This document shows positions 15,225 to 20,609 of a stretch of 20,609 nucleotides of DNA, in pieces; positions within the stretch are counted from its first letter, which is position 1; the number at the start of each line of letters is the position of its first letter. A program made the position numbers and the translations under genes. Source of the stretch: a virus; IMG/VR virus record IMGVR_UViG_3300003323_000521, positions 1 through 20,609 of that record; one strand, given 5' to 3'. The notes under the pieces are model-generated. The model did no database searches and was not told the origin of the DNA. It saw only the letters and a program-made list of their open reading frames with translations.

Positions 15225-15535
15225 GCCGCCTCCGTGATCTCGTCGGCCATGCGGATTTCCAGGCCGAGGCTGTGGGCGATGGACCACTCAAGGCGGGCGC
15301 CCTTGCTGTGGAACCATCCGGGCAGCAGCGCGATGCCGGTGCACTTCAGCAGCTCGGGGATGTCGCGCTTCATGCAGTCGGCCCAGCCGGCGAACTCGCC
15401 CGCGTTGATCTCCGCCGGGTTGGTGACAGCGTGGCCGAGGGCGCGCAGGCGAGCGGCTTCGGCGTGGAAAGCCGGGAAGTTCAGCTCCGGCAGGCCAGAC
15501 ATGGGCCCGGCGATGTACCAGCGGCGGGCGCTCAT
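15221..15535 (-). CDS. DUF4406 protein (nucleoside deoxyribosyltransferase-like fold)
   Basis: A 104-residue protein matching DUF4406: WYIAGPMSGLPELNFPAFHA at the start, then AVTNPAEINAG, DCMKRDIPELLKCTGIALLPGW and SKGARLEWSIAHSLGLEI. The fold is related to nucleoside 2-deoxyribosyltransferases, with the AGPM nucleotide-binding loop and the LLPGW..S.GA..E segment carrying the active-site-like Glu. It may process or sense nucleotides during phage DNA metabolism, although the phage members are uncharacterised. ATG 15535 overlaps the ParB-like gene stop. Confidence 0.87.
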   Translation of the reverse strand: MSARRWYIAGPMSGLPELNFPAFHAEAARLRALGHAVTNPAEINAGEFAGWADCMKRDIPELLKCTGIALLPGWFHSKGARLEWSIAHSLGLEIRMADEITEAA

Positions 15536-16323
15536 TCCTCGACTCCCAGCACCCAGGCCAGCAGGGCCCGCTCGGCGGGGTCCTTGGCATCGGTGTAGCG
15601 GGCGTTGATGGTCGCGCGCGACTTCATCTTGGGCTTCTGCTCGCCGTCGACGACCGCCCGCTGCTTGCGGGCCCGCTCGTGTCCGGAGGCGCCCTCGCCC
15701 GCGGCGATGAGCTCGGCGACCTTGGAGCGCTGCTCCTCAGGCTCGAGCTTCGCGAGAGCCTTGGCGTGGCTGACGTTGATCTGGCCAGCGCCGATGGCGT
15801 CGCGCACGGCCTTGCTGCAGTCCAGCAGCGCGAGCGTGGCCTTCACGGTCGCGGCGGTGCAGCCGAAGATGATCGCCAGGTCGGCCTCGGTGCGGCCGAG
15901 CTGCATGAGCTTCGCCATCTTCTCCGCGCGGCCGATGTGGGTCTCGGCTTCCCGCAGCGCGTTCTCGGCCGCCGTAGCGCTGGCCAGCGTCATGCCGTCG
16001 GCGCGCTTCACGGTGGCCGGCACCTGGATGGGCTCGGCGCCCTTGGCCTCGAGGCGGCGGTTCGCTTCGCGTGCCGCCTTGACGCGCTGGCGGCCGGCGA
16101 CGACCTCGGTGGCACCGGTCTCGGTGTTCTTCGAAACGATGATCGGCTGCAGGACGCCGAGGTGCATGATGTTCAGCACCAGCTTCTCATCGACAGGCAG
16201 GTGCACGCGGCTGTCGTACAGAGGGGATGCCTCGTCGGTCACGAGATGCAGCGTGTTCGGGTCGAACATCAGGAGATTCGTTTTCCCAAGCGCCTGATAC
16301 GCCTGGATGCTGTTCTTGGCCAT
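15532..16323 (-). CDS. ParB-like protein (ParB/Spo0J N-domain plus helix-turn-helix)
   Basis: A 263-residue protein with a ParB N-terminal domain: HLPVDEKLVLNIMHLGVLQP, IIVSKN, and VVAGRQRVKAAREAN (about 75-88), a variant of the usual GxRRxRA box that binds CTP in true ParB proteins. A helix-turn-helix follows at about 143-165 (LGRTEADLAIIFGCTAATVK), then QINVSHAKALAKL. The tail is Lys/Ala-rich. No ParA gene is next to it, so plasmid-like partition cannot be assumed; lone phage ParB-like proteins may be regulators or nucleases. ATG 16323 has GGAGAG 4 nt upstream. The 22-nt gap before it is the only break in the overlap chain. Confidence 0.88.
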   Translation of the reverse strand: MAKNSIQAYQALGKTNLLMFDPNTLHLVTDEASPLYDSRVHLPVDEKLVLNIMHLGVLQPIIVSKNTETGATEVVAGRQRVKAAREANRRLEAKGAEPIQVPATVKRADGMTLASATAAENALREAETHIGRAEKMAKLMQLGRTEADLAIIFGCTAATVKATLALLDCSKAVRDAIGAGQINVSHAKALAKLEPEEQRSKVAELIAAGEGASGHERARKQRAVVDGEQKPKMKSRATINARYTDAKDPAERALLAWVLGVEE

Positions 16324-16345
16324 TGGCTCTCCGGTGGGGTTGTGG

Positions 16346-18769: not shown

Positions 18770-18997
18770 TCAGCCCTCCCCTGCGGTTGCGGCGGCCAGC
18801 TCCGGCCAGATCTCCGACCAGTCGTCCGGCCGCAGGTCCTGCAACCTCGCATCGGGGTCGATCTCGTGCAGCCGGCGCGCGAGCGCCGGGCTCGCCGTCT
18901 TGATGCCCTTCGACACCTGGTAGACGTATTGCTCGTCGCAGCCGAGAAGCTGCGCGATCTCGCGGCGCCGGGCGGGGGTGTAGTTCGGGAGTGCCAT
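18770..18997 (-). CDS. Cro-like repressor (YdaS/Cro family helix-turn-helix)
   Basis: A 75-residue DNA-binding protein. Residues 7-33 form the helix-turn-helix (TPARRREIAQLLGCDEQYVY, then QVSKGIKTASP). The C-terminal DLRPDDWSEIWPEL is typical of YdaS-like Cro proteins in proteobacterial prophages. It should bind the operators at 19006-19067 and shut off repressor synthesis during lytic growth. ATG 18997 is chosen; an in-frame GTG at 19003 lies inside the space right after the -10 box. The predicted pR start falls at about the first base of this ATG, so the mRNA may be leaderless, although AGGA also lies 7 nt upstream of the ATG. Confidence 0.85.
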   Translation of the reverse strand: MALPNYTPARRREIAQLLGCDEQYVYQVSKGIKTASPALARRLHEIDPDARLQDLRPDDWSEIWPELAAATAGEG

Positions 18998-19003
18998 ATG
19001 CAC

Positions 19004-19031
19004 ATCCTAGCGTTTCGCTAGGCAATGTCAA
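19004..19031 (-). promoter_or_regulatory. pR-like early promoter for cro and the early operon
   Basis: On the minus strand a perfect -35 TTGACA (19031-19026), a 16-nt spacer and a -10 TAGGAT (19009-19004). Operator O1 occupies the spacer and O2 touches the -35 box, so repressor binding would block RNA polymerase directly. The predicted start is around 18997. Confidence 0.83.
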
Positions 19032-19067
19032 GCGTTTCGCACTTGCATGTTTCTAGCGTTTTGCTCG
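19006..19067. promoter_or_regulatory. Right operator: three CTAGCG-TTT-CGCTAG sites
   Basis: O1 at 19006-19022 is a perfect 17-bp dyad, CCTAGCG-TTT-CGCTAGG. O2 at 19029-19043 (CAAGCG-TTT-CGCACT) and O3 at 19053-19067 (CTAGCG-TTT-TGCTCG) are weaker copies. Centres lie at 19014, 19036 and 19060, so the spacing is 22 and 24 bp, about two helical turns. O1 and O2 cover pR; O3 lies 10 nt before the repressor start codon, the place for repressor autoregulation. Confidence 0.9.
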
Positions 19068-19076
19068 AATGACGGA

Positions 19077-19607
19077 ATGACCTACGAGGAACAGATCAAA
19101 GCGGCCCTCTCCGACTTGTGCTCAAGGCACGGCGGGGTCGAGGCAGTCGCAGACGCGGCGAAGCTCAGCGCAGAAAGCCTCAAGCAGGTCTTGGCGGGGA
19201 CGAAGCTCCCCTCAGGTAGGCCCCGGGGGCTTGGGCCGTCATCAAGGGAGAAGCTCGAAAAGGTGTTCCCGGGCTGGATGAGCAGTGCTCAGCAGGATGA
19301 TGCCGAGGACGAGCTGGAGAACGTGAGCAAGGATCCGAACACAGGACAGCTGCTGATCGATGGGCACCGCGTCACGGCGGAGGAGGTCCGCCTGGTCCAG
19401 GCGCTGCGCGAACTACTACCGGAACACCGCGGCGATGCGACCCGGGCGCTGTTCGACAAAGCGGAAGAAATGCGCAGAATCAAGGCGCATTTCCAAGCCG
19501 CGACCGGTGCGCCGGCGGCAATTCCGGATCACCGCCTGACGCGAATCAAGGCTGCGCCGTCAGAGCCTGGCAAGGCGACGAAGAGCCAGGTAAAAGGGAA
19601 GGGCTAA
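19077..19607 (+). CDS. CI-like phage repressor without a peptidase domain
   Basis: A 176-residue probable lysogeny repressor. The N-terminal DNA-binding part (LSDLCSRHGGVEAVADAAKL, SAESLKQVLAGTKLP) is a helix-turn-helix. A second stretch (LENVSKDPNTGQLLIDGHRV, then TAEEVRLVQALRELLPEHRG) is probably the oligomerisation region. There is no S24/LexA-type Ser-Lys self-cleavage domain, so induction by RecA-stimulated cleavage of this protein is unlikely. ATG 19077 is preferred over 19047, because the earlier codon lies between operators O2 and O3, where pRM must act. Divergent from cro, with the operators between, it fits the repressor role; the family was not confirmed by search. Confidence 0.8.
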   Translation: MTYEEQIKAALSDLCSRHGGVEAVADAAKLSAESLKQVLAGTKLPSGRPRGLGPSSREKLEKVFPGWMSSAQQDDAEDELENVSKDPNTGQLLIDGHRVTAEEVRLVQALRELLPEHRGDATRALFDKAEEMRRIKAHFQAATGAPAAIPDHRLTRIKAAPSEPGKATKSQVKGKG

Positions 19608-19634
19608 CAGGCCCTCAGGGCCAAAGGGGGAACG

Positions 19635-20099
19635 ATGAGAAGAAGAGATGTCGCTGGCCTGCTGGGCAGCTCAGCGCTCCTGCACGCCTGCGGAGGCAGC
19701 GGAGGCGGCCAGAAGGAAGACGGCCCCGGCCAGCTGGTGGTCACTCTGACTGGAGAGAAAGCCAGGCAGGTCGCCGTCAGCGACTGGTTCGAGGTGACGC
19801 GGTTCGACTTCCGTTCGCCGGGCCGGTACACGCTGGTCGCAACAGCTCTCTTCACGGCAGGGCAGGTCATCGCGCCCAGCTACTTCAACTTGCTATTCGA
19901 CCTGTCAGGTCAGGGGCAATCTACTGGGGATGGAAGCCCAGCATTTCCCATCTCGAAGGCTGGCCAGGTCGTTTCGATCAACAATTCGTTGGTCGTCGAG
20001 GAGGTCGACCCTGGGCCGTGGCAGGCGCGAATAATCTTCCGCTTCTACGGATTCGGCGGCGTGTTGACGGATCCAGTCCTGAAGGTCTACAAGAGGTAG
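19635..20099 (+). CDS. Predicted lipoprotein cotranscribed with the repressor
   Basis: A 154-residue protein. It begins MRRRDVAGLLGSSALLHACG: a twin-Arg-like basic start, a short hydrophobic core, and a lipobox-like LHAC with Cys19 as the lipidation site (His at -2 is unusual). A Gly/Ser linker follows, then a beta-rich domain (QLVVTLTGEKARQVAVSDWF, then GRYTLVATALFTAGQ and ARIIFRFYGFGG) of unknown family. AGGGGG lies 5-6 nt before ATG 19635. The gene is only 27 nt after the repressor stop, with a terminator at its end and no promoter between, so it should be expressed in the lysogen. That suggests lysogenic conversion, such as superinfection exclusion or surface modification, as inference. 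Confidence 0.78.
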   Translation: MRRRDVAGLLGSSALLHACGGSGGGQKEDGPGQLVVTLTGEKARQVAVSDWFEVTRFDFRSPGRYTLVATALFTAGQVIAPSYFNLLFDLSGQGQSTGDGSPAFPISKAGQVVSINNSLVVEEVDPGPWQARIIFRFYGFGGVLTDPVLKVYKR

Positions 20100-20121
20100 G
20101 TCGGGCGATCCGACGAACAAA

Positions 20122-20145
20122 TCCCGCTGCGGCGGGACTTTTTTT
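20122..20145 (+). terminator. Intrinsic terminator of the repressor-lipoprotein operon
   Basis: TCCCGC-TGCG-GCGGGA forms a 6-bp stem and is followed by C and seven T residues, a classic rho-independent terminator on the plus strand. It lies 23 nt after the lipoprotein stop and just before the pL operator, isolating the two units. Confidence 0.88.
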
Positions 20146-20154
20146 GCCCACCCA

Positions 20155-20191
20155 CTAGCGTTTCGCTTGACACCGTCTAGCGTTTCGCTAT
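20155..20191. promoter_or_regulatory. Left operator: two CTAGCG-TTT-CGCTAG-type sites
   Basis: The sites CTAGCG-TTT-CGCTTG (20155-20169) and CTAGCG-TTT-CGCTAT (20177-20191) have centres 22 bp apart, exactly the O1-O2 spacing of the right operator. One overlaps the -35 box and the other fills the promoter spacer, as at pR. Confidence 0.9.
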
Positions 20192-20194
20192 GAT
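20167..20194 (+). promoter_or_regulatory. pL-like promoter
   Basis: A perfect -35 TTGACA (20167-20172), a 16-nt spacer and -10 TATGAT (20189-20194, five of six consensus positions). Its layout matches pR base for base around the operator. It should be strong and tightly repressed, reading into the lectin-like gene with a leader of about 34 nt. Confidence 0.88.
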
Positions 20195-20234
20195 TGTCTC
20201 CAACGCAGCACCCCCCGCTGCGAAGGAGATGGAG

Positions 20235-20609
20235 ATGGCAACCCGGAAGATCTCGAAGACCGAGCCGAGCAACCTGCCGAAGATCGGCGCGGCCTGGCCG
20301 GGCGTGGAAGGCAGCATCTACGCTGGCGTCACGACGGACCCGAAGGGCCAGCTGTACGCGCTGGTGCTGCTGGCTGACAAGCCGATCTCGTGGCTGAACT
20401 TCAAGGGCGCGAACGACTGGGCAAAGAGCATCGGTGCGACGCTCTTCAACCGCGTCGAGGGCGCGATGCTGTTCGCGAACATCCGCGACCAGTTCGAGCG
20501 CGCGTGGTATTGGACCAGCGAGGCCGATGGCGCCTCGTACGCCTGGTACTGCGGCTTCGGCTTCGGCTACCAGAACTACTTCCACAAGAGCTACGAGGGC
20601 TGCGCCCGC
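20235..20609 (+). CDS. C-type-lectin-like (DUF1566/Lcl-like) phage protein, 3' end outside window
   Basis: The first 125 codons of a gene from ATG 20235. The N-terminus (MATRKISKTEPSNLPKIGAA) and the LYALVLLADKPISWLNFKGA segment match prophage proteins I recall from Betaproteobacteria. The C-terminal visible part, with WYWTSE, YAWYCGFGFGYQNYF and KSYEGCAR, is the Lcl/DUF1566-type lectin fold that usually ends in RAVRR. AAGGAG ends 6 nt before ATG 20235; the in-frame ATG at 20229 touches the ribosome site. It is the first gene under the repressor-controlled pL promoter, so it should be made early after induction. The function of this phage family is not known to me. Confidence 0.82.
   Translation, partial: MATRKISKTEPSNLPKIGAAWPGVEGSIYAGVTTDPKGQLYALVLLADKPISWLNFKGANDWAKSIGATLFNRVEGAMLFANIRDQFERAWYWTSEADGASYAWYCGFGFGYQNYFHKSYEGCAR

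Follow-up and report, generated by a model that had tools for sequence, protein, structure and literature searches.

The right end of the analysed DNA, which carries one palindrome five times (at 19007, 19029, 19053, 20155 and 20177), was recognized as very probably the immunity region of a temperate phage, built on the lambda plan in mirror image. The DNA was the IMG/VR record IMGVR_UViG_3300003323_000521, positions 1 to 20,609, and this whole stretch of 20,609 nucleotides is called here the window. Its minus strand encodes terminase, portal, prohead protease and capsid genes. The region reads as follows: a leftward cro gene, the promoter pR with the operators oR1, oR2 and oR3, the promoter pRM, a divergent cI gene, a lipoprotein-like gene, a terminator and, finally, the operators oL2 and oL1 at the promoter pL, which opens the rightward early arm. 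A temperate life was deduced from the presence of the CI gene, since the 20.6-kb fragment contains no integrase.

The operator copies were compared with the 15-mer CTAGCGTTTCGCTAG, a perfect palindrome. It is represented without mismatches by oR1 (19007–19021), which occupies part of the pR spacer and of its -10 box and has the same position in the relatives. The poorest of the five copies is oR2 (19029–19043, CAAGCGTTTCGCACT, four mismatches), in which the centre GCGTTTCGC is intact, while the right arm is decayed; nevertheless, its position is kept in the relatives, and it overlaps the -35 box of pR and touches the predicted -35 box of pRM. The third copy, oR3 (19053–19067, CTAGCGTTTTGCTCG, two mismatches), also conserved in position, extends across the spacer of pRM and reaches into its -10 box. 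On the other side, oL2 (20155–20169, CTAGCGTTTCGCTTG, one mismatch) extends into the -35 box of pL, and oL1 (20177–20191, CTAGCGTTTCGCTAT, one mismatch) lies over the pL spacer and -10 box. Thus, all five copies or variants of CTAGCG-TTT-CGCTAG listed in the first-pass annotation of this DNA were found, the one at 19029 with four mismatches. Scanning of the window with the 15-mer gave five matches against 0.35 expected, a total in which the perfect palindrome at 19007–19021 was counted on the minus strand too, and none of 100 shuffles reached five. With the looser core CTAGCN5GCTAG and at most one mismatch, four sites were found in the 20.6 kb, all four in this region. The tetranucleotide CTAG is rare in the window (8 copies against about 11–36 expected), and five of the eight copies are inside the operators. 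The scan for operator copies, proposed earlier as a check, showed these close matches clustered in the immunity region of the window. Neither the 13-bp nor the 15-bp operator core had a match in the non-subscription literature searched, in agreement with the earlier remark that the sequence could not be tied to a described phage; papers in which CTAGC occurred together with prophage terms proved to be primer or unrelated matches.

The two main promoters are near-identical, both with the perfect TTGACA and the 16-nt spacer previously ascribed to them: pR (19004–19031, minus strand, with TAGGAT as the -10 box) reads leftward into cro and pL (20167–20194, plus strand, with TATGAT) reads rightward. 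They were the two best of three sigma-70-like matches in a consensus scan with 0.2 expected. The operator-to-operator spacing is 22 bp in both modules. The operator at the promoter had been described as contained in the spacer, which holds for 12 of its 15 bases, while the other three belong to the -10 box. The second operator, 22 bp upstream, was said in the first reading to touch the -35 box; more exactly, the initial TTG of this box is part of the operator. A protein bound at either operator of a promoter would block RNA polymerase. The predicted pRM (19043–19070, plus strand; TTGCAT, 16 nt, TCGAAT) ends six bases 5' of the repressor ATG and was too weak to be detected in the sigma-70 consensus scan; the relatives have a -10-like box 6–7 nt 5' of the repressor ATG.

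The cro gene (18770–18997, minus strand, 75 aa, ATG at 18997) opens the leftward early transcript, and its ATG is located 6 nt past the -10 box of pR. With a profile of nine relatives it matched YdaS of prophage CP-933P (8co2/8c7k) at E 4e-16 (also given as 3.5e-16), while the predicted fold had its best match in 8c7k (Foldseek TM 0.72, E 0.005, probability 1.00); PHROG 35, annotated as 'transcriptional repressor', matched at E 1e-5. There was no match of the window protein to the Pfam family YdaS_toxin (PF15943) at the curated cut-off, although Cro proteins from other loci that have these operators do match it, with values up to 2e-20. The protein can, accordingly, be described as YdaS-like by profile and fold and not as a member of PF15943. 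A toxin pair of the YdaS kind was also considered, but YdaS has been argued to be a Cro analogue rather than a toxin (PMC8630535).

The divergent gene (19077–19607, plus strand) encodes a protein of 176 aa with an N-terminal helix-turn-helix and C-terminal helices, which was grouped with the aligned CI relatives. Its predicted structure is all-helical, with pLDDT above 90 in the N-domain. Pfam and NCBIfam searches with this protein found no match, and a structure search returned general XRE folds only, with E of 0.1 or more. The S24 peptidase domain was absent, according to Pfam, both from this repressor and from the whole record; it is present in 9 out of 25 related repressors, with which the window protein shares the helix-turn-helix but has helices in place of S24. 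The protein is CI-like by position and was not classed as an S24-type CI. Because of the lack of the S24 domain, it probably escapes RecA-dependent self-cleavage and SOS induction.

Next to it, in the rex position, is a lipoprotein-like gene (19635–20099, plus strand, lipobox LHAC) without a family match in Pfam, PHROG and NCBIfam-type searches. In the lysogen, its expression is probably driven by pRM. The two operator-promoter modules bracket the repressor and the lipoprotein genes, as had been stated. Different lipoprotein-like genes recur between cI and oL, in the window and in the loci L005, L008 and L013; such genes in the rex position are possibly involved in lysogenic conversion or superinfection exclusion. 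The following intrinsic terminator (20122–20146, plus strand; a 6-bp stem, a loop of 4 and a T tail) would end the repressor-lipoprotein transcript ahead of pL; its position is the main argument, since one such match was also expected by chance in the scan. The first gene under pL (20235–20609, plus strand, with the ribosome site AAGGAG) runs off the end of the window, and its product is weakly Lcl_C/DUF1566-like (Pfam Lcl_C E 0.17, PHROG 4245 E 5e-4); a similar protein is encoded directly after pL in L199. The pL transcript often starts near CATCG (L008, L013, L095, L214, L256 and L272), and a GCAGC...GCTGC hairpin is present soon after the pL start in the window (20208–20224) and in L095, which could be a leader element, e.g., an antitermination site. 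The cro and repressor transcripts are predicted to be leaderless from the distances kept in the relatives.

No match among GenBank phages was obtained by megablast with 8.6 kb of the window sequence or by tblastn with the repressor. The exact double-operator promoter was found by a pattern search in 103 IMG/VR stretches, and in 89 of the 99 loci fetched by pattern a Cro-family gene was present with an operator within 160 bp upstream. Many distinct contigs have both modules with the same spacing around a CI-type gene and cro divergent at a fixed distance, so that the suggested comparison with related prophages, as well as the anatomy (cro leftward of pR, a divergent CI gene and a terminator ahead of pL), supported the original oR/oL interpretation. 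Counted from the Cro ATG, the oR sites of the closest relatives start near -25, -47 and -71, while the oL pairs are mostly 0.6–3.4 kb away with 22–24 bp between the sites. The aligned relatives gave the operator consensus CTAGC-N5-GCTAG: the arms CTAGC and GCTAG were near-invariant and the central five bases variable in 37 module-like matches from 28 representatives, although part of the arms was prescribed by the scan and a small number of matches were off-register or due to chance. By this alignment, the TTT/AAA centre is not essential and CTAGC-N5-GCTAG is the true consensus; the window is unusual among its relatives only in the uniform operator centres. Whole virus records of the relatives contained 3–6 sites with at most one mismatch, and these were the immunity-region sites of the loci that were read base by base.

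The closest relative with a named host belongs to Delftia (Burkholderiales). In the prophage of Delftia acidovorans NBRC 14950 (L019) Cro is 65% identical to the window protein, and in the IMG/VR contig 3300048917_000385 (L005/L006) it is 81% identical; the operators occupy matching positions in both modules in both cases. Within the 6.6-Mb genome of D. acidovorans, 4 of the 16 sites with at most one mismatch were concentrated in a single 0.9-kb stretch. There were also differences from the window: L009, with Cro and operators as in L019, has a repressor with the S24 domain, and in L005 the interval from cI to oL contains 2.6 kb of different cargo. At one locus (L007, 1285–1421; L255, contig 3300014202_000400) oL and oR are arranged back to back with a distance of about 100 bp between the modules, and neither this interval nor the rest of the 21-kb record contains a CI gene.

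The immunity region of lambda consists of oR and oL, CI, Cro, rexAB and t_imm, with three operators at oR. The window mirrors its gene order and directions and likewise has three oR operators and an accessory gene plus a terminator between oR and oL; two like operator-promoter sets bracket the repressor gene, and cro is divergent from cI with operators common with pRM. In contrast to lambda, two and not three operators were recognized at oL, the repressor lacks the self-cleaving S24-type C-domain, Cro is outside the lambda Cro sequence family and the cro mRNA is predicted to be leaderless. Judged by the YdaS family membership of its Cro, the closest characterized switch is PaaR2/YdaS of prophage CP-933P from E. 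coli O157:H7. Its PaaR2 is described as an octamer-forming CI analogue without sequence similarity to CI; footprinting showed that the sites bound by PaaR2 and YdaS over PRM and PR overlap, and the two proteins also regulate PL, whose -35/-10 match those of PR, while a leaderless repressor gene has been reported for both paaR2 and lambda cI (PMC8630535). Common to CP-933P and the window are the YdaS-family Cro, a divergent CI analogue with a leaderless gene (in the window by prediction), repeated operators over PRM/PR, a second set at PL with the -35/-10 of PR and accessory genes between cI and PL. The likeness is one of Cro and layout. The operators of CP-933P are 18-bp inverted repeats with the consensus GTTTAGTAA and pseudosymmetrical sites, compared to CTAGC-N5-GCTAG in the window, and its cargo is a toxin-antitoxin pair instead of a lipoprotein. 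The window has the same kind of switch as CP-933P with a different operator code.

In such a switch, CI dimers at oR1/oR2 and oL2/oL1 would occlude both boxes, -35 and -10, at pR and pL and keep the prophage silent. Through oR3 over pRM, CI would limit its own synthesis and Cro would shut CI synthesis off, the YdaS-type Cro and CI competing for the same CTAGC-N5-GCTAG sites. Activation of pRM by CI at oR2, looping between oL and oR (1.1 kb apart) and leaderless translation of cI and cro may also take part.

The binding of CI and Cro to these sites is inferred here from the composition of the loci and of the recognition helices. Among 113 non-redundant Cro proteins from a protein search, all 12 with the helix EQ(Y/F/C)(L/V/I)YQ had the operators upstream, compared to 1 of the 101 others. 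A tree test of this covariation placed them mostly in one clade with two supported independent contrasts, too few for significance, and for this reason the association is regarded as a strong co-occurrence and not as a proof of coevolution. An invariant Gln was present in the recognition helix of all 25 CI representatives, in several CI proteins EEYIYQ or EQYIYQ takes the place of the EQYLYQ of Cro, and the CI profile weakly cross-matched Cro, centred on the EQYLYQ-helix region; in the window itself, the CI helix AESLKQ differs from the Cro helix DEQYVYQ. Sole binding by the Cro homologue, with the 19077–19607 protein acting elsewhere or not being a repressor, would fit the co-occurrence of the operators with Cro even at loci without a detected CI (ten aquatic phage records without integrase and S24, in six of which, as in L255 and L099, the CI profile detected the Cro gene alone), but is unlikely: the gene divergent from cro encodes a helix-turn-helix protein matching the CI N-domain profile in 41 loci (not all of them independent phages), oR3 overlaps the start region of the CI-type gene, Cro alone would hardly account for a second bracketing module and in CP-933P the sites of YdaS overlap those of its CI partner PaaR2 (PMC8630535). 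A phage-plasmid with the palindromes as parS-like partition sites was suggested by the ParB-like protein encoded in the window on the early strand (15532–16329; Pfam, PHROG), but this reading was rejected as highly improbable because ParB_N occurred in 1 of 14 operator-bearing records, i.e., the window itself, and was absent from the 13 relatives checked, and because the sites sit exactly in the promoter boxes. Chance repetition is a negligible explanation: short motifs do recur in long sequences, and about seven loose-core sites with two or fewer mismatches are expected per window, but the shuffling result for the exact 15-mer, the recurrence of the module in the 103 viral stretches and its conservation in the relatives refute it.

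Apart from the operator switch with both regulators, which remains the preferred reading for the window, many of the pattern-fetched loci were from aquatic phages and had no CI gene beside the double-operator promoter. They comprise most of the loci L173–L271 and the records G358–G367, in which a gene for a Cro homologue diverges from this early promoter. An integrase and an S24 repressor were absent from ten aquatic records, an absence that is provisional, as the records are possibly incomplete, and in a CI profile search of six of these ten records, L255 and L099 the Cro gene alone responded. These phages are apparently virulent and keep the operators and a Cro homologue without a recognizable CI. 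It is tentatively suggested, as a possibility with the odds rather against it, that the code CTAGC-N5-GCTAG is common to temperate phages with CI and Cro and to such virulent Cro-only phages. If true, the CI of a lysogen could shut down infecting virulent Cro-only phages, and control by Cro only would represent a lasting lifestyle and not a relic.

Overall, the type of the switch is already known, while its operator sequence was found in none of the literature searched and yet recurs in many phages. CTAGC-N5-GCTAG provides an operator signature by which a large phage group can be searched for, and it predicts the prophages and phages that should share immunity. The related repressors combine a single DNA-binding domain with either of two C-domains, S24 or helical, and offer a natural set for studying how SOS induction is acquired or lost by phages.
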